Position numbers and translations under genes: made by a program. From positions 1 through 64,000 of the forward strand of contig PGXU01000014.1 in NCBI GenBank assembly GCA_002839335.1: a stretch of DNA of 64,000 nucleotides, written 5' to 3'. This document shows, piece by piece, positions 36,610 to 46,755 of the stretch; position 1 is the first letter of the stretch; every line of letters begins with the position of its first letter. The notes beneath the pieces are model-generated. The model made no database searches and was not told the origin of the DNA. It worked only from the letters and a program-made list of their open reading frames with translations. Source of the stretch: Spirochaetae bacterium HGW-Spirochaetae-4. Lineage in GTDB: Bacteria; Spirochaetota; Spirochaetia; Sphaerochaetales; Sphaerochaetaceae.

Positions 36610-37170
36610 ATGGGTAGAAGAAATTTTCTATTGCTTATTGCAATTTTCTCTTTGGTATTGATTGTTGCTGGTTGTGCAAAAAAAGAAGCACCCGTCGCAC
36701 CGGCGGCACCGGCTGTAGTAGCACCTGCTCCGGCAGCGGTAGCAGAACCGGATGCTATCACAACGGCTTCGATAGTCGATAAGGCTTCGGATTTTCTTTC
36801 CGCGGTCGGTCCGGATGGAACATGGATAATCGCTGTGGTACAGGATCTGTCACTTGATAGTGAAATTGTCGTTGATGGACAGTTCACCCAGAATGACAAG
36901 CCGTACAGGAAACTGGCGTTCTATGCTCAGGATGCGAACAGAAAAATTACCGAGCGCTATACTGTCATTGCTCCCCGTATGACGGTGAGAAGCCAGAATA
37001 CACGAATCCAGGGTGGAACATTCCGTGGTGATGTGTACGTCGAGGCGAATGGATTTCATCTTGTGGATGGAACAGTCGATGGGAACGTCTACTTCCTGAA
37101 ACAGGAGTATTTGGATAGTTTTACGATGGATGAACCATCTTCTGTTACTGGAGTAACCGAGTTGCGGTAG
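36610..37170 (+). CDS. Ala/Pro-linker lipoprotein, unknown family
   Basis: The 186-aa lipoprotein has lipobox VAGC (C22), then CAKKEAPVAPAAPAVV and more Ala/Pro linker to about residue 47. The C-terminal half has short regular beta repeats (TRIQGGTFRGDVYVEANGFHLV, DGTVDGNVYFL), suggesting a small beta-solenoid. No catalytic motif was recognised. The linker is strikingly like those of the two lipoproteins at 44475 and 45442, so it may belong to the same surface system. ACGGAGG precedes the ATG. A strong terminator follows. Confidence 0.7.
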   Translation: MGRRNFLLLIAIFSLVLIVAGCAKKEAPVAPAAPAVVAPAPAAVAEPDAITTASIVDKASDFLSAVGPDGTWIIAVVQDLSLDSEIVVDGQFTQNDKPYRKLAFYAQDANRKITERYTVIAPRMTVRSQNTRIQGGTFRGDVYVEANGFHLVDGTVDGNVYFLKQEYLDSFTMDEPSSVTGVTELR

Positions 37171-38170: not shown

Positions 38171-38413
38171 TCAATTTTCAGGATGCTTGTCTTTCCACCG
38201 TTTCAGGAATACCTGGTAGGCATAGACATGGCCTTGGATCTCGGCGTTCTTGATTTCACCCCTACCGACCCAATCCTGGCCTTGATAGACCAACAGGTGG
38301 TGCAGTTCCTGTTCAATATCCGTGATATCGAACTTGGGACTCTTGGAGCGCAAGGCGAGATGGTCGAGCATAAGCTCGAATTCCGAATCAAGTATGTGCT
38401 GTTCTATAGACAT
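38171..38413 (-). CDS. Small hypothetical protein (80 aa)
   Basis: The 80-aa soluble, acidic, helix-rich protein starts MSIEQHILDSEFELMLDH and contains ITDIEQELHHLLVYQG and YAYQVFLKRWKDKH. No family was recognised. A GGGGAA a few bases upstream could serve as a ribosome site; it is the edge of dispersed-repeat copy E. Codon use resembles its neighbours, and the open frame fills the gap between two terminator/repeat elements, so it is probably a real gene. Confidence 0.55.
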   Translation of the reverse strand: MSIEQHILDSEFELMLDHLALRSKSPKFDITDIEQELHHLLVYQGQDWVGRGEIKNAEIQGHVYAYQVFLKRWKDKHPEN

Positions 38414-38423
38414 TCAGATTCCC

Positions 38424-38496
38424 CTTGGGGCGGCGAAGGATGCGAAGTATCCTGGGTCCAGGGCTTGCCCTGGGGTATGGATACCTTTCATTTTTT
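38424..38496. repeat. Dispersed repeat, copy E
   Basis: This is the best-preserved copy: CTTGGGGCGGCGAAGG, ATCCTGGGTCCAGGGC, then GCCCTGGGGTATGGATACCTTTCATTTTT. It contains a CCAGGGC-TT-GCCCTGG palindrome. Its end supplies the last codons and stop of the polyprenyl synthase gene (minus strand). Confidence 0.75.
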
Positions 38497-39474
38497 TCGA
38501 TCGGACAGTTTGTCGAACATGCCCAGAAGGATAGAGGAAACCTGTTCGTTTCCCAAAGCATGAATATCCTTCAGCGCCCGTTCGGAGTATGTTGTAGCAA
38601 GAATCTTGGATTTTTCCAATCCTCCCAGCTCGGTCACCCGACGGACAGCACGCACCACATCCCGTTTGGACAGTTTTGCTTTTCCGGTGATCCGGTGCAG
38701 AAGCTGGTCTTCCAGGGGCAGGGCCTTTTCAATCTCCATGGCTTCCAATAGGGGTAGGGTTGGAATACCGCAGAGCAAATCCTTTCCAGGTTCCTTGCCC
38801 AGCTTTTCCTTGTCGCCATCGTAATCGAGAATATCGTCCTGGATCTGGAAGGCCATGCCCATATTGTAACCGATGCGGTGCATGCGTCTTTGGACACACT
38901 TGTCCGATTCCGCAACCGCCGCTCCTGCATACGAACTCAAGGCGAACAACGATGCGGTCTTTCCTGCGATTCTCCGAAGATAGGTGGCGGTCGAAATGGA
39001 AAAATCCCCCTGTCCGGCATCCTGTTCCAATTCGCTTTCACATAACCTGCTGAACGCATTCGACACTGCCGAGGCCTCGAGGTCTCCCTCGCTGCCTCCG
39101 ACCAATGCCATTGCCCTGGATAAGAGGTAATCTCCTGCCAATACCGCTTGTTTCGCTCCGGTCTGGGCATACAAGGTGGGGATCCCCCTACGTGTCCGGG
39201 CATCGTCGATGATATCGTCATGGACCAGCGAGGCCATATGGATCATCTCCAACACACTGGCTATACGCTTGACTTCGGCCCTTCGCTCGGGCTTCCCCAA
39301 GCGTGAGCCGATCAATACCAAGGCGGGGCGTAGCAACTTGCCGCTGGTTCGTACCTGGGCGGCAAGCATCTGACGGACAAAAGAGTGGGAACGATCTATC
39401 GCGTCCTGTATCAACGAACCGACCTCTTCAAGCTCCGCGGCAATTTCCGGTTCGTCTTTCCAAAATTCATTCAT
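38488..39474 (-). CDS. Polyprenyl diphosphate synthase (trans-isoprenyl, DmkB-like)
   Basis: The 328-aa enzyme has the first Asp-rich motif DDIIDD at 86-91 and the second QDDILDYDG, with GKLLRPALVLIGS upstream, so it condenses IPP into long-chain polyprenyl diphosphate. It lies three bases after ndh2 on the same strand. In the Listeria EET locus the equivalent (DmkB) makes the side chain of a demethylmenaquinone used by Ndh2, which is the likely role here. The quinone-head prenyltransferase (DmkA/MenA) is not in the window. Its stop falls inside repeat copy E. Confidence 0.88.
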   Translation of the reverse strand: MNEFWKDEPEIAAELEEVGSLIQDAIDRSHSFVRQMLAAQVRTSGKLLRPALVLIGSRLGKPERRAEVKRIASVLEMIHMASLVHDDIIDDARTRRGIPTLYAQTGAKQAVLAGDYLLSRAMALVGGSEGDLEASAVSNAFSRLCESELEQDAGQGDFSISTATYLRRIAGKTASLFALSSYAGAAVAESDKCVQRRMHRIGYNMGMAFQIQDDILDYDGDKEKLGKEPGKDLLCGIPTLPLLEAMEIEKALPLEDQLLHRITGKAKLSKRDVVRAVRRVTELGGLEKSKILATTYSERALKDIHALGNEQVSSILLGMFDKLSDRKK

Positions 39475-39476
39475 GA

Positions 39477-41486
39477 TTAAAGGGCTGCATCCTTCTGCTT
39501 GGCGATCCGTCTCTCCATCTGCTTGCGGGTGAACTCCGGTTCATCCATGAAGAAGTAGAGCTTCTTGGCGATAGGAGTCTTGTTCCACAATTTCTTGAGG
39601 TACGGCATTACCCAATAGTCAAGACCGAAGGCCCGCCCGGCTCCACCCAGCATGACAATCGAGACTGCCATGTACCAGAGGATTTCCTTTCCAGCGAGAG
39701 CTCCAATGAGGAACATGATTGACAATCCGATTGAAACGATCGCTGCGGGGAAGGTGAACAGTCCACCGAGGAAGCACAACCCGATACCCACTTCTGCCAG
39801 AACAATCATGATCTGGAACAGATATGGCGCGGATGCGACGAAGGTTTCGTTTATCCAAGTATATATGGCAAGCGGCTGGTCCAACAACGGTGGGGCGAAT
39901 TGCTTGACCTTGGTGACCACTTCTCCAGCAGCATCGGCAACAGCAGTCCCTGCATCCCAAGAGCCGGCCGTACTCGCGGAACTTACAGCTTCCACCACAG
40001 GTTCGGCCCAAGTACTGGCGGAACCGACTGCCTCTGTGACAGCTTCCGCACCGGCGGCTACAGCATCCCCTTCTGCTCCCGGTAATGGACCCCAATAGAC
40101 TTTCCGTCCGGTCGTGTCCGTGAGCCAACCCTCGAGAATCTTGTTCCCACCTTCGATCAACCACATGACACCGAGGTACATGCGCAAGAAAACAATCCAG
40201 TAAGAGGGGACCTTGTAGGCAGCCATGCCACCGATAAGGGACCTGCGGTGCTTGATGTTGAGGATCTCATGTTTGAAATAGGTCCATGCACCATTCACAC
40301 CACATACACCGAACTGGTAGTACATGTTCACCAGGTGTTTCACCGCTTGGGCGAAGAATCCGGAAAGGGCCATGCCCATGTTGTAGGAGACGGCATAACG
40401 ACCACCGATAGAGACCATGTAGCCATGGAAGGCCGACTTGAATGGAGCAACCGGCTTCGTGGGCAATCCCAATTCACCCCTGATGGTATGGATAATGCCA
40501 TCAGCGGCGGTAGCTGCTGTCTGTTCGGCCGCTTCGACGATCTGGGGTACGGGTTTCCCGTCCTCCATGAACCAGATACCATCGCCGGCGAGGTACACAT
40601 TCTCATGGTCCGGGGACTGCATGAATTCGTTGACCTTCTTGCGTTGGACTTTTCCGTCGGTCAAGGGTAGCGAGTGGCAGAAGGTGGTTCCGCGAACCCC
40701 GCATGTCCAGACCAATGTCTTGGTCTTGATGACGGTGCCGTCTTTTATGGTGAAACCGTTCTCATCGGCATTGACGATCAGGCTTTGGGTCCGAATCTCG
40801 ACGCCTTTCTTCTTCATATAGGCGATTGCCTTGTCGCGCGGCTTGTCGGGCAGCATGTTCAGGATATTGCCGAGGGCCTCGACGTTCATGAGCTTCACTT
40901 CGTTGAAGTCGACTCCGTATTCCTTGCAGAGGATCGGCAACCATTCGATGAGTTCGCCAACGAGTTCCACTCCAGTGAATCCGCCACCCGCGACGACGAA
41001 GGTCAACATTTCCTTGCGGATCGTCTCATCCTTCTCGTATGCTGCGGCCTTGACCGTGTCGATCAGGTGACGCTTGATGCGGCAGGCATCCTCCAGGCTC
41101 CATAGGTAAAAGGAGTGTTCCTTGACCCCGGGGATATTGAAATCGGTCGATTCGGCACCGGTTGCTATGATGAGCTGGTCGTAGCCATAGCTGGCCCCGG
41201 CACCCTCGAGCACCTGCTTCTCAAAATCGATGTTCTTGATCTCGTCGCGTACGACATTCACCATTTTTCCGGCAAATATCCTATCGAAGGAAATTTTTAC
41301 CGATGCTTCGTCGACACGATTCCCGGCAACCTCATGCAATTCGGTCATGAGAATGTGGTGTCTGTGGCGATCGATCAGTGTCACCTCGACTTGGTCCTTC
41401 ATCTTCTTGAAAGCTTTGTGCAGCCTCTTAGCCGCATGGACTCCGGCATATCCTCCGCCAAGAATCACAATCCGTTTCTTATCCAT
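39477..41486 (-). CDS. ndh2: Type II NADH dehydrogenase with C-terminal membrane (DoxX-like) domain, EET-type Ndh2
   Basis: The 669-aa protein has an N-terminal two-dinucleotide-fold flavoprotein: FAD site VILGGGYAGVHAAKRL, NAD site VVAGGGFTGVELVGEL, and VYLAGDGIWFM. From about residue 435 come four or more TM helices of DoxX type. They are split by a long Ala/Glu/Ser/Thr-rich stretch (about 475-530) between the first and later helices. Soluble Ndh enzymes are about 400 aa; the extra membrane domain is typical of Ndh2 from flavin-based EET loci. It would pass electrons from NADH to a quinone. AAGGAGAGGG lies before the ATG. Confidence 0.88.
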   Translation of the reverse strand: MDKKRIVILGGGYAGVHAAKRLHKAFKKMKDQVEVTLIDRHRHHILMTELHEVAGNRVDEASVKISFDRIFAGKMVNVVRDEIKNIDFEKQVLEGAGASYGYDQLIIATGAESTDFNIPGVKEHSFYLWSLEDACRIKRHLIDTVKAAAYEKDETIRKEMLTFVVAGGGFTGVELVGELIEWLPILCKEYGVDFNEVKLMNVEALGNILNMLPDKPRDKAIAYMKKKGVEIRTQSLIVNADENGFTIKDGTVIKTKTLVWTCGVRGTTFCHSLPLTDGKVQRKKVNEFMQSPDHENVYLAGDGIWFMEDGKPVPQIVEAAEQTAATAADGIIHTIRGELGLPTKPVAPFKSAFHGYMVSIGGRYAVSYNMGMALSGFFAQAVKHLVNMYYQFGVCGVNGAWTYFKHEILNIKHRRSLIGGMAAYKVPSYWIVFLRMYLGVMWLIEGGNKILEGWLTDTTGRKVYWGPLPGAEGDAVAAGAEAVTEAVGSASTWAEPVVEAVSSASTAGSWDAGTAVADAAGEVVTKVKQFAPPLLDQPLAIYTWINETFVASAPYLFQIMIVLAEVGIGLCFLGGLFTFPAAIVSIGLSIMFLIGALAGKEILWYMAVSIVMLGGAGRAFGLDYWVMPYLKKLWNKTPIAKKLYFFMDEPEFTRKQMERRIAKQKDAAL

Positions 41487-41548
41487 GTGCCCTCTCCTTA
41501 TCCCTTGGTCCTAAAACCGTTTAATTTTCTGCGAAATTGATCTCCGAA

Positions 41549-41566
41549 CACGACGGTTCGGTCGTG
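41549..41566. promoter_or_regulatory. Inverted repeat in the ndh2/apbE divergent region
   Basis: CACGAC-GGTTCG-GTCGTG is a perfect 6-bp palindrome located between the divergent ndh2 and apbE genes, just before the possible apbE promoter (TTGCCG, 17 nt, TATATC). It could be an operator or a hairpin. Confidence 0.35.
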
Positions 41567-41617
41567 ACAGGTTGCCGTTTCTCGCATAATGCGATATATC
41601 ACTTACATAGTAGTACC

Positions 41618-42679
41618 ATGAAACATACAAACATTGCAATTCAGTTCTTTTTTATCGGAATGATTTTTCTCACAATCTCAACGATTTCTTGCTCGAAGCC
41701 GAGCGAAGGTGTTGTTGTCGATCCGCAATCCCGTTCCGAACTCATGCTGGGGACCGCTTGCCGTATCACCATATATGACAAGCCGTCCGAGGAAGCATTC
41801 GATGCGGCGTTTGCCCGTATCGCTGATATCGAGGCCAGGATGAGCTTGCATCTCGATACCAGCGAGATCGCCGAGGTCAACCGTGCCGCCGGAAATGGTC
41901 CGGTCGTAGTCTCGGACGATACGTTCAGGGTCGTGGAGAAAGCTCTCGAGGCAGCCCGCTTGAGCCACGGGGCTTTCGACCCGACTGTCGGACCGTTGGT
42001 AAAGGCGTGGGATATCGGGGGGGACAATCCCCGTCGTCCTCCCCAAGCGGAAATCGACCGGTTGTTGCCGCTTGTCGGGTACGACCGCGTGGTACTCAAC
42101 GAACAGGATCATTCGATAGAGTTGCTCGATACCGGAATGATGCTCGATCTCGGAGGTATCGCAAAAGGGTATGCCGCGGACGAAGTCGCCGAGATACTGG
42201 TTGCCCACGGAATTCATAAGGCGATCGTCAATCTTGGTGGAAATGTGTTGACCGTAGGTTCCCGGGTCGACGGAAGCGCATGGCGCATCGGTATCCAAAA
42301 TCCAGAGGCTGAACGGGGAGGCCATGTCATGGTTGTCGGACTGGACAACCAAGCGCTGGTTACCAGTGGCCCCTACGAGCGATATCTGGAAGTTGAAGGC
42401 GTGGTCTACCACCATATTCTCGATACTGTGACGGGCTATCCGGTCAAGACGGATATTACCAGTGTGAGCATCATCACAGCCGAATCCTTTATAGCCGATG
42501 CGTTGTCGACTGCAGTGTATTCGCTTGGACTACAGGAAGGAATGGCCCTGATCGATTCCTTGGATGGAGTGGAGGCGGTATTCCTTGATTCCATGAACAA
42601 GATCCACCTTTCCCAGGCATTGCGGGACGGATCCGTTTCCTACACCATTTCCGACGAAGGGTTCAGCGTAATCGATTGA
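41618..42679 (+). CDS. apbE: FAD:protein FMN transferase ApbE (FmnB-like lipoprotein)
   Basis: The 353-aa enzyme covalently attaches FMN from FAD to Ser/Thr of FMN-binding domains outside the membrane. Lipobox STISC gives C25. ApbE features are [14 protein letters not shown], the [12 protein letters not shown] block, [13 protein letters not shown], and a C-terminal [11 protein letters not shown] with metal ligands. The ATG at 41618 is preferred; the upstream frame is noise. No Shine-Dalgarno is visible, so the leader is very short. It is the probable modifier of the FMN-lipoproteins encoded at 45442 and perhaps 44475. Confidence 0.93.
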
Positions 42680-42685
42680 CTTGAT

Positions 42686-43303
42686 TCAGAGTGTGGGGAG
42701 AATGCCACTTTTTGCCAAGACGAACACTGTCCATAGTATGGTGAGATGCACGGCATTTGCCAATAAAGCCGATCCCGTAGCCTTGGTTCCGGAAGTATTC
42801 GGGAGTTTGTTCGAACTAGGGATTTCGCTTTCGTTCCCCGGAGCGGAGAGGACCCCTAGCAATCGGTCGATAGCCGGGATGAACGGTCTCTTCGGGCTGA
42901 TCGATCTCCAACTTGTCGTTATCTTCTCGAAATAATAGAACTGCAATGATACAAGCTTTCCCAATCGTCCGGGAAACTGCGGTCTGCCGGTGACCATATA
43001 GTGGGACAGGTAGAGCAGCGCGATCAGCGTGAATGCCTTGCGGGCACCCAACAGCAAGGCTCCTACGGTTATGGGGAAGTCTCCTATGGAGAACAAGTGC
43101 AATCCATGAGGTTGTAGCAGATGCGCACTGGAGACACTCGCCAACAGGATGATGTTGGGAAGCAACCGGAATCGTCTTCCGTGTGTCAGGGCCAACATGA
43201 TCACATAGCCAGCCTGGAACGTGATGCCGACAATCGAGTCTTGCAACAATATCGAGGGAAGTGCGAGCAATCCCATGTAGAGGCGGACATTCGAAGACTT
43301 CAT
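42686..43303 (-). CDS. ECF transporter T-component-like membrane protein (FmnA-like)
   Basis: The 205-aa protein has about four or five TM helices, with AGYVIMLALTHGRRFRLLPN, GALLLGARKAFTLIALLYLS and a C-terminal RLGKLVSLQFYYFEKIT resembling the coupling region of EcfT proteins. EET loci contain such a protein (FmnA), which moves flavin across the membrane together with ECF ATPases. The ATG at 43303 overlaps the upstream stop as ATGA; the longer frame is noise. The extreme C-terminus ends in one more TM helix. No EcfA ATPases are in the window. Confidence 0.65.
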   Translation of the reverse strand: MKSSNVRLYMGLLALPSILLQDSIVGITFQAGYVIMLALTHGRRFRLLPNIILLASVSSAHLLQPHGLHLFSIGDFPITVGALLLGARKAFTLIALLYLSHYMVTGRPQFPGRLGKLVSLQFYYFEKITTSWRSISPKRPFIPAIDRLLGVLSAPGNESEIPSSNKLPNTSGTKATGSALLANAVHLTILWTVFVLAKSGILPTL

Positions 43304-43839
43304 GAGCACTTCTCCAACTCCATCCGGTACCACGTGGAGGTCTGTACGAATTGCTGCGCGAATATTCCCAGGATTATCGAGGTGATCAGTCCTACGATCA
43401 GGAAGGGTGGTGCGATCAGTCGGGCCGCATCGCCGAACAATATAAGTTGGCTGAGCAGCAACTGGACACCATTGCTGGCCATTGCCCCACCGATACTGAC
43501 ACCGACCAGACTTATCCAACGTTTCCCGAACCGATACAACACATACATGACCAGGGCACTCGCGATGGTTCCTCCGAGGGAAAAGACGATGATATAGGAG
43601 AATATGGTACCGGTGACCAAACCTTGTCCCAGAACTTTCAGGAGTGCCAGCATGATATACTCGCGATCCTTGAGGATTCCCAGACCGATAATGAGTGGAA
43701 GATTCGCCAAACCGATACGCATGAAGGGGACCGGTTTTGGAATGAGGTATTCCACGGTGGAGAGGAAGAGGGCGAAGGCGGCCAGTAGGGCGACGAATTC
43801 GATGCGAGCATACCGGTCGGACTTAGAATGCCGTATCAT
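43300..43839 (-). CDS. Gx transporter family / heptaprenyl diphosphate synthase component I-like (EetB-like)
   Basis: The 179-aa integral membrane protein has five or six TM helices and the family hallmark VEYLIPKPVPFMRIGLANLPL near its N-terminus, then LGGTIASALVMYVLYRF and ASNGVQLLLSQLILFG. It resembles ECF S-components. In Listeria-type EET loci a protein of this family sits beside the NusG-II protein; its exact role is unresolved. GGGAGG four bases before ATG 43839 fixes the start, which lies inside the eetA-like gene. Confidence 0.75.
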   Translation of the reverse strand: MIRHSKSDRYARIEFVALLAAFALFLSTVEYLIPKPVPFMRIGLANLPLIIGLGILKDREYIMLALLKVLGQGLVTGTIFSYIIVFSLGGTIASALVMYVLYRFGKRWISLVGVSIGGAMASNGVQLLLSQLILFGDAARLIAPPFLIVGLITSIILGIFAQQFVQTSTWYRMELEKCS

Positions 43840-44197
43840 CGACACCTCCCTCTTGTGAAGCCATGGTGCCTTCCACCAATATGAACACATCGTTGGGGAG
43901 ACAGATTATCCAATCCCCTGGTTTCGAGACCCATCCGGCGGCGATACAGACTTTGTTCCGGCAATCGGAATCATGTACATGTACCTTGCCATCTTGGATT
44001 TCTATGGTTGTTTCACCGACCGGGCCGTAAAATGTGGCAAAGGTATCGACGGATAAGTCGTAGACCCATTCCTGGTTTCCCGCACGGACTCTGACCTCGG
44101 GTTTCCCCGTGAAGTCCCCGTAGGAGTTGAAGCTGGAAATGACAATCGCCAACGAGATGACCAATAGTGCGATATCGCCCAACTTGAACTGCTTCAT
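43823..44197 (-). CDS. NusG domain II-containing membrane-anchored protein (EetA-like)
   Basis: The 124-aa protein has one N-terminal TM helix (about 7-24) followed by a small extracytoplasmic beta domain of NusG-II type (VRVRAGNQEWVYDLSVD, KVHVHDSDCRNKVC, GDWIICLPNDVFI). Two Cys in DCRNKVC and one in WIIC are conserved in the family. It leads the minus-strand set eetA-eetB-fmnA-like, overlapping the next gene by 17 bases. This family accompanies ApbE and FMN proteins in EET loci, where its function is unknown. Confidence 0.78.
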   Translation of the reverse strand: MKQFKLGDIALLVISLAIVISSFNSYGDFTGKPEVRVRAGNQEWVYDLSVDTFATFYGPVGETTIEIQDGKVHVHDSDCRNKVCIAAGWVSKPGDWIICLPNDVFILVEGTMASQEGGVDDTAF

Positions 44198-44380
44198 GGG
44201 CGCATGGTAGCAGGTTGTCTTTCCCTTGTCAAAGTAATGCAACGTGTATCCTCACGGGTACTTTCCACAGATACCCTGCTTGAAAATTGGCACCGGTTCT
44301 TGTTTTGCCTACCCGACACCGAGAGTGGCAGCAATACAAAAGGTAGCTGGAAATGTGGTCAAAAGAGAAAAAAACAAAAA

Positions 44381-44397
44381 TTTACGTAATTCGTAAA
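44381..44397. promoter_or_regulatory. Palindrome in the divergent EET control region
   Basis: TTTACG-TAATT-CGTAAA is a perfect 6-bp inverted repeat in the 277-nt divergent region (44198-44474) between the eetA-like gene and the lipoprotein gene. It is a candidate operator. The rest of that region contains the promoter described separately and no gene. Confidence 0.4.
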
Positions 44398-44404
44398 AAA
44401 TATC

Positions 44405-44454
44405 TTGATTAGAATCGATAAAGTAATATATTATCGATTTAACCTAATATACTA
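44405..44454 (+). promoter_or_regulatory. Promoter/operator of the 44475 lipoprotein gene
   Basis: TTGATT (44405-44410), 16-nt spacer, TATATT (44427-44432). A 9-bp perfect inverted repeat AATCGATAA (44413-44421) / TTATCGATT (44431-44439) straddles the -10. Downstream, CCTAATATACTA (44443-44454) is identical to the sequence at 45397-45408 in the next promoter. TTGATTAGAATCGA (44405-44418) is one mismatch from an FNR-like half-site pair. Confidence 0.55.
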
Positions 44455-44474
44455 CCAATGGGGAGAGATTGATT

Positions 44475-45290
44475 ATGAAAAAAATGACTTGGCTTTCTAT
44501 GGTTGCGATCGTTCTTTTGGTCGCATTCGTTGCAATCGGCTGTTCCAAGCCCGCTCCTGTCGCCCAGGCTCCAGCAGCAGCACCCGCTGCAGCAGCTCCT
44601 GCCGCACCCGCAGCACCCGTCTCCGATGGTTCCCAGGATCTCAAGATCAGCTACCGCTTGAACACAGCTGCTCCAGATGCCGAGAACTATTTCTCCTTCG
44701 CCGGCAATATCCGCTACATGGTCGCTGAAAAAGACCATGCCGATGCGACCACCGGTGCTTCTGCTCTCGGTTCCACACACCTGTTCAATGCGTACCTCTA
44801 CGACGTTGAAGGTAAGGCGACCTTGTCCAGCGGACTTCGCGGCTTGTTCCTCTTCGGTGTCACACCCTATGAGCAGATCGTGACCGACAACCTCCAGGCT
44901 TCCAAGGCTGCCGATGGTACAATCACCATCCAGTACACACACCGTGGCACAGCTTATCGGATCACCACCGACAAGTCGGGCAAATTGCTCTTCCCCAACG
45001 GTTCCTTCGAGATGCGCAATGTCGGCTATATCGTTGGTGGCGGACCCCAGGTCATCAGCAAGGATTTCTCTGCTGATGGAACCGCAGCAACTGTCGATTA
45101 TGCAAAGGTTTGGGACAGCAGCGTAGCTGGTGGGAAATTGGTCGATGACAAATCCGACAAGAAGACCGGCAACATCGTGAAGAATATTGCGGCAGCCGAT
45201 GCCCAGTACTTCTTCGACGGTGCCTTGCAGGCCGCTCTCGACAATGGCGTACTGACAATCAATGGTGCATTGACAGCAGTCCACCGCTAA
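44475..45290 (+). CDS. Ala/Pro-linker lipoprotein with isolated DATTGAS motif
   Basis: The 271-aa lipoprotein has lipobox AIGC (C23), then a long Ala/Pro linker to about residue 52 and a beta-rich body of unrecognised family. Residues 90-96 read DATTGAS, which fits the ApbE acceptor pattern DxxTGA(S/T); S96 would be the flavinylated residue. A full FMN-binding domain is not visible around it, so this is only suggestive. The ATG at 44475 with GGGGAGAG upstream is preferred over a TTG six bases earlier. A terminator at 45312-45340 separates it from the next lipoprotein gene. Confidence 0.7.
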   Translation: MKKMTWLSMVAIVLLVAFVAIGCSKPAPVAQAPAAAPAAAAPAAPAAPVSDGSQDLKISYRLNTAAPDAENYFSFAGNIRYMVAEKDHADATTGASALGSTHLFNAYLYDVEGKATLSSGLRGLFLFGVTPYEQIVTDNLQASKAADGTITIQYTHRGTAYRITTDKSGKLLFPNGSFEMRNVGYIVGGGPQVISKDFSADGTAATVDYAKVWDSSVAGGKLVDDKSDKKTGNIVKNIAAADAQYFFDGALQAALDNGVLTINGALTAVHR

Positions 45291-45311
45291 ACCGGATACA
45301 AGATTCCATAC

Positions 45312-45340
45312 AACCGGCCTCCAGTTTGGGGGTCGGTTTT
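45312..45340 (+). terminator. Terminator of the 44475 lipoprotein gene
   Basis: The stem AACCGGCCTCC / GGGGGTCGGTT allows G-U/mismatch pairs, with an AGTTT loop and a TTTT tail. Confidence 0.75.
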
Positions 45341-45378
45341 CGTATCCCCGCAGGTGATATATTTCTTGTTGTGAACCC

Positions 45379-45433
45379 TTGCAAAAGTGGCTTTCTCCTA
45401 ATATACTATACGCCGATATCGATATATTAGGAG
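45379..45433 (+). promoter_or_regulatory. Promoter/operator of the FMN-lipoprotein gene
   Basis: TTGCAA (45379-45384), 17-nt spacer, TATACT (45402-45407). An 11-bp perfect inverted repeat CTCCTAATATA (45395-45405) / TATATTAGGAG (45423-45433) has its left arm on the -10 box and its right arm covering the Shine-Dalgarno. The 17-nt spacer contains TATCGATA (45417-45424). Confidence 0.7.
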
Positions 45434-45441
45434 TGATTCAC

Positions 45442-46755
45442 ATGAGAAGTTTTCGTATTGTATTGTTGATTCTGGCACTTGCAATGACTCTGTTCGCAGT
45501 GGTCGGTTGTGCGAAAGAAACCGAACCTGTCGCACAGACACCTGCAGCGAGCCCTGCTGTCGCACCGGCTCCGGCTGCCGCTCCGGCAACTCCTTCGGCT
45601 CCAGCCGAACCCGCGGGGAAATATGAAGATGGTATCTATTATGCCATGGATGAAGCATTCGGTTCCTCCGGTTGGAAATATGCGGTTACCATTACCGTTG
45701 AAGGTGGAAATATTGTTGATGTCGACTGGAACGGCATGAATGTCAATGCCGGTATCGACAAGAAAACCTACGACCAGGCCGGCAGATACAATATGGTCAA
45801 ATTCGGTGGAGCCCAGGCCGAGTGGTACCAGCAGGCTGAGAAGGCTGAAGCCTATCTGATCAAGACCCAGGATCCGACTGCGATTACATATACCGATGAA
45901 TCGGGACATACCGATGATATCGCAGGTGTTTCGATCCATGTGGTGGAGATGTTCGAATTGGCGGAGAAGGCGCTTGCCGCAGGTCCGGTAGGTGTCGGAA
46001 TGTATGAGGATGGGGCCTACTTCGCGATCGCCGATGAGTATCCTTCCTCCGGTTGGAAAGAATATGTCTCGCTTACCGTCATCAACGGGCGCATCGCTGC
46101 TGTGAACTGGAGTGCGGTCAACAAGAATGGGGACGACAAGAAGCAATATGACAAGGCCGGCAAGTACAACATGGTCAAATTTGGTGGAGCACAGGCCGAG
46201 TGGTACCAGCAGGCTGAGAAAGCCGAAGCCCATTTGATCGAGATCCAGAATCCGACTTTGGTGAATTATATCGACGACGATGGACATACCGATGACTTCG
46301 CGGGTGCATCGATCCATGTGGATGCATTGTTCGAATTGGCCTTGGAGGCTCTTGCCGCGGGACCAGTGGAACTCGGTCCGTACGCGGACGGCGGTTATTA
46401 CGCTTCCGATGATGCCTTTGGTTCATCCGGTTGGAAAAGCAATGTCTCCCTCTTCGTGAAAGATGGCAATATCGTGAATGTATACTGGAGTGCCGTGAAC
46501 GAAGCTGGCGATGACAAGAAGGTCTTCGATATGGAAGGCAACTACAACATGGTCAAGTTTGGTGGTGCGATCGACGAATGGTATGTCCAGGCACAACGCG
46601 TCGAGAATTATCTGCTCGAGACCCAGGATCCCAAGAAGATCACCTATACGGATGACGAAGGTCATACCGACGACATTTCCGGTGCTACAATCCACGTGAA
46701 CGATTTCTATGCTTTGGTCGAGAAAGCGTTCGCTGCTGGTCCTAAAAAGTATTGA
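45442..46755 (+). CDS. Lipoprotein with three tandem FMN-binding domains (PplA-like)
   Basis: The 437-aa surface lipoprotein has lipobox VVGC (C23), an Ala/Pro linker to about residue 53, then three near-identical domains of 126 residues. Each contains DGxYxA, SSGWK, DDKK or DKK, YNMVKFGGA, EWY-QA and a C-terminal G-H-T-D-D motif. The flavin-acceptor positions are S164 (DDIAGVS), S290 (DDFAGAS) and T416 (DDISGAT), exactly 126 apart; only the third is canonical. PplA of Listeria has two such domains and carries electrons outside the cell. The ATG at 45442 has TTAGGAG upstream. A U-rich terminator follows. Confidence 0.88.
   Translation: MRSFRIVLLILALAMTLFAVVGCAKETEPVAQTPAASPAVAPAPAAAPATPSAPAEPAGKYEDGIYYAMDEAFGSSGWKYAVTITVEGGNIVDVDWNGMNVNAGIDKKTYDQAGRYNMVKFGGAQAEWYQQAEKAEAYLIKTQDPTAITYTDESGHTDDIAGVSIHVVEMFELAEKALAAGPVGVGMYEDGAYFAIADEYPSSGWKEYVSLTVINGRIAAVNWSAVNKNGDDKKQYDKAGKYNMVKFGGAQAEWYQQAEKAEAHLIEIQNPTLVNYIDDDGHTDDFAGASIHVDALFELALEALAAGPVELGPYADGGYYASDDAFGSSGWKSNVSLFVKDGNIVNVYWSAVNEAGDDKKVFDMEGNYNMVKFGGAIDEWYVQAQRVENYLLETQDPKKITYTDDEGHTDDISGATIHVNDFYALVEKAFAAGPKKY

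Follow-up and report, generated by a model that had tools for sequence, protein, structure and literature searches.

A candidate flavin-based extracytosolic electron transfer locus of the Listeria type in a two-membraned spirochaete

Most accounts of flavin-based extracellular electron transfer (EET) concern Gram-positive bacteria, and a set of genes in the genome of Spirochaetae bacterium HGW-Spirochaetae-4 (Sphaerochaetaceae) raises the question of whether a spirochaete encodes a chain of this kind and how far outwards such a chain would carry electrons. An outer membrane is known for this family. The window analysed here, a stretch of 64,000 nucleotides from contig PGXU01000014.1, belongs to a draft genome of 3.6 Mb in 143 contigs that is 99.9% complete. 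Comparison with the EET loci of Listeria and Enterococcus, and with related loci across the class Spirochaetia, led us to the conclusion that the locus likely specifies a Listeria-type chain for flavin-based extracytosolic electron transfer as far as the lipoprotein PplA.

Gene content and layout of the locus

Pfam, NCBIfam and fold searches recovered seven EET-type genes with intact frames at 38488-46755, each at the position and in the family that the first-pass annotation had assigned to it (Table 1). The same annotation had described four units in place of one operon, and the strand blocks agree: HepT-Ndh2 on the minus strand, ApbE on the plus strand, EetA-EetB-EcfT-like on the minus strand with overlapping genes, and a lipoprotein gene together with PplA on the plus strand. 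Better start positions were assigned to ApbE and PplA (41618 and 45442), and two genes missing from the earlier list were added, one for an 80-aa protein and one for a lipoprotein carrying an ApbE motif, so that the whole set spans 38171-46755. Scans of the locus for promoters and terminators yielded nothing informative. The 80-aa protein has no match in Pfam or NCBIfam, and most Sphaerochaetaceae loci encode an orthologue of it (E 1e-13 to 1e-51) directly 3' of HepT. Near the locus, a small lipoprotein encoded at 36610-37170 has a homologue (1.9e-47) that adjoins MenA-HepT-Ndh2 in another family (L138 6529-7089); lipoproteins of this type are missing from most loci.

Table 1. Genes of the locus with the evidence for each assignment
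Feature	Coordinates	Strand	Evidence or remark
80-aa protein, no assigned function	38171..38413	-	last gene of the Ndh2-HepT unit, 3' of HepT
HepT/DmkB, polyprenyl diphosphate synthase for the quinone tail	38488..39474	-	PF00348 3.5e-60; both DDxxD motifs; Listeria DmkB 33%, 5e-55
Ndh2, type II NADH:quinone oxidoreductase with fused DoxX-like membrane domain	39477..41486	-	Pyr_redox_2 1.7e-38; Listeria Ndh2 4e-141
ApbE/FmnB, lipoprotein FAD:protein FMN transferase	41618..42679	+	PF02424 8.7e-93; PDB 7ESA 2.7e-79
ECF-T-like membrane protein in the FmnA slot, short	42686..43303	-	Foldseek ECF-T matches; EetB fusions in relatives
EetB, ECF-S-like FAD export subunit	43300..43839	-	PF07456 8.4e-36; Listeria EetB 6.7e-16
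EetA, NusG domain II protein	43823..44197	-	NusG_II 2.1e-22; Listeria EetA 9e-8; Enterococcus EetA 5e-11
Lipoprotein with ApbE motif DATTGAS, genus-restricted; candidate second flavinylated protein	44475..45290	+	conserved motif
PplA, lipoprotein with Pro/Ala linker and three FMN-binding domains	45442..46755	+	NCBIfam PplA 2.1e-26; PDB 2KZX 9.7e-38

Genuine EET loci of Listeria and Enterococcus were located by tblastn with Ndh2 in very large records of a plasmid collection. Searches in both directions matched their Ndh2, FmnB, DmkB, EetB, EetA and PplA with the counterparts in the window, and each of these proteins, used as a query, found its counterpart as the only match in the window. A placement of Ndh2, the Gx-family protein and the NusG-domain-II protein in unrelated subfamilies, named beforehand as an outcome that would speak against an EET locus, was thus not obtained; of the locus proteins, only FmnA found no counterpart. 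A search for PplA by tblastn against the plasmid records gave no match, and PplA was compared with its Listeria and Enterococcus counterparts through the Ndh2-linked loci. One of the Listeria records, NZ_LR134400.1, is labelled plasmid 3 and looks like a chromosomal fragment, since it carries ribosomal-protein genes as well as the EET locus.

Alignment of Ndh2 with the EET-associated Ndh2 of Listeria revealed 40% identity over residues 1-632, which includes the fused membrane domain; among the matches listed, Bacillus-type NDH-2 proteins cover about 58% of the query, and the best PDB match, B. subtilis YjlD, extends over residues 4-394 (1e-63). The C-terminus is multi-helical with a weak DoxX-like match in Pfam/NCBIfam, and an Ala/Glu-rich loop is also present. 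In other lineages, a small number of Ndh2 proteins carry motifs that resemble the ApbE target (DTVSGAT, DDGTGAT and DAVSGAS). HepT begins 2 bp downstream of Ndh2, which places a DmkB-type polyprenyl synthase within the locus itself. The closest structural match of ApbE is Listeria FmnB; comparison with the Listeria and Enterococcus loci gave 3e-89 for FmnB, and the catalytic residues Ser257, Arg262, His273 and Asp301 of FmnB, numbered as in a review (PMC12052999) and mapped onto the alignment, are all conserved.

The 205-aa product of the FmnA slot, whose gene overlaps EetB by 4 nt, was annotated in the first pass as EcfT/FmnA-like. The protein has no match in Pfam or NCBIfam and no blast match to FmnA, but an AlphaFold model built from 22 relatives (pLDDT 82.8) returned ECF-T proteins as all nine of its best PDB matches in Foldseek (best E 4.6e-3, TMq up to 0.63), and in six loci of relatives it is fused with EetB into one polypeptide. 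Profile comparison with Listeria FmnA and canonical ECF-T proteins gave a weak match over the N-terminal half to two thirds, and the ARG coupling motifs are absent. We therefore describe it, on the strength of its predicted fold and of the fusions, as an ECF-T-like partner of EetB that is related to FmnA only by fold, and the missing ARG motifs place its coupling to an ATPase in doubt. Two ECF-T genes accompanied by ATPases are present elsewhere in the genome, and in two loci from Ndh2-negative relatives EetA and EetB are found with a canonical ECF-T and two ATPases.

The first-pass annotation had also named a multi-FMN lipoprotein, and PplA indeed comprises three FMN-binding domains that resemble the solved domain 2KZX and gives reciprocal matches with PplA of Listeria (9e-11) and Enterococcus (2.5e-12), while its NCBIfam PplA score lies below the curated cut-off. 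Measured against the ApbE flavinylation rule D-x-x-[S/T]-G-A-[S/T] (PMC12052999), only domain 3 is canonical (DDISGAT), with one deviation in domain 2 (DDFAGAS) and two in domain 1 (DDIAGVS); both domains of the Listeria and Enterococcus proteins carry [S/T]GAT. As relaxed forms recur throughout the class, they are probably functional. The lipoprotein encoded between EetA and PplA is found in this genus only, and a perfect motif, D[AE]TTGAS, is conserved in all three genus members. Strict ApbE motifs are scarce, with 13 in 304,000 residues of the surveyed genes, mostly in PplA proteins, and the motif marks this protein as a candidate for a second flavinylated lipoprotein. AlphaFold prediction from the three sequences reached a pLDDT of 32. 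An apparent kinship with rhodanese-like lipoproteins was rejected, as the match consisted of signal peptide and linker. One relative that lacks Ndh2 encodes, beside ApbE and an Rnf-EetAB-ECF operon, a PplA-like lipoprotein of two domains with no ApbE motif (L181 1782-2924).

Conservation of the locus and the source of the quinone

The closest named relatives are Sphaerochaetaceae/Spirochaetales MAGs, with Ndh2 identities of up to 92%. Eight long Sphaerochaetaceae loci, whose Ndh2 proteins are 72-92% identical, and three loci of further families keep the whole arrangement, a recurrence that argues against a chance assembly. Other Sphaerochaetaceae loci (L045, L046, L050 and L112-L117) retain PplA divergent to Ndh2-HepT with ApbE/EetAB moved away. 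Across the class, 91 of 297 genomes, representing 45 of 112 genera, gave strong Ndh2 matches; in 40 class loci, HepT adjoins Ndh2 in essentially every case, and ApbE, EetA/B, PplA or MenA lies near Ndh2-HepT in about a dozen families. Scattering of these genes without linkage in related genomes, which had been put forward as an outcome that would speak against an EET locus, is thus not what was found.

DmkA/MenA had been reported as missing from the window, and its gene, the single UbiA gene of the genome, was located outside it on contig C75; together with the ECF-T/ATPase genes mentioned above, a genome search proposed in the first pass thus recovered both DmkA and ECF ATPases. The protein groups with the other MenA proteins of the family, in a sister position (94/94) to MenA genes of other families that adjoin HepT/Ndh2, and two of the three MenA genes beside HepT/Ndh2 in that sister clade also lie beside PplA. 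The gene itself is located 3' of genes for a TetR regulator, an MMPL/RND transporter, a LolA-like protein and a DUF1302-like outer-membrane protein on the same strand (L098 9109-15211), and the two other members of the genus share this neighbourhood within the stretch that their contigs cover. A second, MqnP-like UbiA prenyltransferase occurs near PplA/Ndh2 in four loci of other genomes, and at least G007 and G056 have another UbiA gene at a different site as well.

Of the 61 family genomes, 20 carry UbiA/MenA, and exactly these 20 carry Ndh2 (Fisher 1.6e-16 by genome and 3e-6 by genus, neither being a phylogenetic test). At class level, UbiA was present in 85 of 91 Ndh2-positive genomes vs 61 of 206 others, counts that ignore phylogeny. 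No route to the head group 1,4-dihydroxy-2-naphthoate (DHNA) was detected: MenD was found in none of the 61 family genomes by a search that recovered it in controls, and MqnE gave no match above the cut-off in 21 relatives. A match to PF02621 (MqnA/D-type) on contig C91, which would have pointed to the futalosine pathway, was rejected as an ABC substrate-binding protein encoded beside a permease and an ATPase. These negative results, along with MenA scores below the curated NCBIfam cut-offs, would fit a prenyltransferase and HepT that make a prenylated redox carrier other than demethylmenaquinone. We regard this as very unlikely, as the top-scoring NCBIfam families of the protein are all DHNA polyprenyltransferases and Lactiplantibacillus plantarum, whose DHNA pathway is incomplete, performs EET with exogenous DHNA (PMC8837199). 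By analogy with that organism, and because no DHNA route was detected, the head group of a demethylmenaquinone-like quinone may here be scavenged or taken up.

Flavin supply shared with Na+-NQR and Rnf

The genome also encodes Na+-NQR and Rnf operons (G000:C134:63500-75500 and G000:C37), on contigs other than that of the locus and without physical linkage to ApbE/EetAB; ApbE may nevertheless serve them and so have other clients. EetB was detected in 60 of 61 family genomes, including those without Ndh2, so that EetA, EetB and ApbE on their own are a general flavin-supply module and not diagnostic of EET; in one relative, the three adjoin Rnf. The diagnostic set is instead Ndh2 with its fused domain, HepT, MenA and PplA. 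Supply systems associated with Rnf/NQR share ApbE, EetA and EetB with the present locus but differ from it in lacking Ndh2, HepT and MenA and in serving RnfG/NqrC. NqrF was found in 16 of the 20 family genomes with Ndh2/UbiA (one being a fragment below the cut-off) and above background in none of the 41 others. The quinone is probably shared between NQR and Ndh2, and the strict idea of a quinone made for Ndh2 only is weakened by the presence of NQR. UbiA nevertheless tracks Ndh2 more closely than it tracks NQR, because only those 16 genomes carry NqrF and it is absent from a complete genome (G056) in which Ndh2, UbiA and PplA are present.

These observations bear on a reading without extracellular respiration, in which EetAB/ApbE would serve NQR and Rnf, whereas Ndh2, NQR, HepT and MenA would maintain a quinone pool for another terminal reductase and PplA would be a side client. 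The near-universal EetB, the NQR and Rnf operons of the genome itself, the frequent NqrF among UbiA-positive genomes and the EetAB genes of Ndh2-negative relatives, which are linked to Rnf and to ECF ATPases, are all in keeping with such a module. We consider it unlikely, since no other gene in the family accompanies Ndh2-HepT as constantly as PplA, which stays divergent to Ndh2 at loci that ApbE/EetAB have left, and since genome G056 keeps the set without NqrF.

Proposed chain and its meaning for Spirochaetia

Orthology of the parts, their linkage and the co-occurrence of Ndh2 and UbiA together support the proposed route from NADH via a quinone to PplA, and we conclude that this is probably a real flavin-EET-type chain, here as a variant in a diderm. 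In the proposed chain, Ndh2 would oxidize NADH and reduce a demethylmenaquinone-like quinone, made by HepT together with a MenA-type prenyltransferase whose gene lies outside the locus, possibly from imported DHNA. EetB and the ECF-T-like protein, along with EetA, would supply FAD outside the cytoplasmic membrane, and ApbE would place FMN on PplA and probably also on the neighbouring lipoprotein and on subunits of NQR and Rnf. Electrons would then pass from quinol to the PplA flavins, possibly via the membrane domain of Ndh2, and PplA would hand them on to an acceptor that is either periplasmic or at the outer face of the cell. Judged by homology, the path to PplA appears well supported, while we infer the electron flow, the acceptor and the attachment of FMN at the individual sites.

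With regard to the organization of the parts, the locus resembles the system of Listeria monocytogenes in its Ndh2 with fused membrane domain, DmkB, FmnB, EetA, EetB and PplA, and pplA is divergent from ndh2 in Listeria as in several spirochaete loci. It differs in the diderm host, the four gene units, the unlinked MenA, the additional NQR, a PplA of three FMN domains with partly relaxed motifs in place of two, and a short ECF-T-like protein without ARG motifs in place of FmnA. The EET locus of Enterococcus raffinosus (NZ_CP081847) likewise contains pplA, ndh2, eetA, eetB, dmkB and FmnB; in contrast to the spirochaete locus, its PplA has two domains, it has no linked ECF-T, and menA is linked, in two copies, one of which matches our MenA with 1e-37. 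Flavin EET in Ca. Effluviviacota, a predicted Gram-negative phylum with DmkAB, EetAB, FmnAB and PplA, was reported in 2024 as the first case outside Gram-positives, and the proposed NADH oxidizer there is Nuo and not Ndh2 (PMC11323493). An earlier survey mentions eetB in other phyla (PMC9973259). Our literature search returned no paper linking spirochaetes with flavin-based EET, with the qualification that the supplementary gene-cluster tables of PMC8238504 and PMC9973259 may hold spirochaete entries.

Whether electrons would leave the cell is a separate matter, and we place true extracellular delivery at about an even chance. PplA may instead lie inside the outer membrane and reduce diffusible acceptors there, for example chelated ferric iron, free flavins, fumarate or iron bound to siderophores, for redox balance or iron uptake. 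This narrower form of the main reading, which would agree with the outer membrane, with the absence of an identified conduit through it and with Listeria, which reduces both iron and fumarate through a chain of this kind (PMC9094743), is possible, yet we lean somewhat against it: the several flavin domains of PplA and its long Pro/Ala linker would favour reach. In several spirochaetes, moreover, lipoproteins are exposed on the cell surface. A still wider reading, which we put forward tentatively and hold to be rather doubtful, is that a large part of the class Spirochaetia performs a diderm form of flavin-based extracellular respiration on the DHNA of its neighbours, fed by Ndh2 and the Na+-pumping NQR, in which flavinylated lipoproteins (the three-flavin PplA and the second lipoprotein with an ApbE motif) in place of cytochromes would cross the envelope and the FAD exporter may have lost or changed its ATPase coupling.

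The finding raises two questions to which culturable Sphaerochaeta are suited: by what route a flavin chain would pass an outer membrane, and whether cross-fed DHNA is required for it. The conservation of the locus in many families, together with a prenyltransferase that occurs strictly with Ndh2 while no DHNA pathway was detected, makes supposedly fermentative spirochaetes candidates for extracytosolic respiration, and the gene content suggests that a two-membraned lineage, too, could respire on acceptors outside the cytoplasm.
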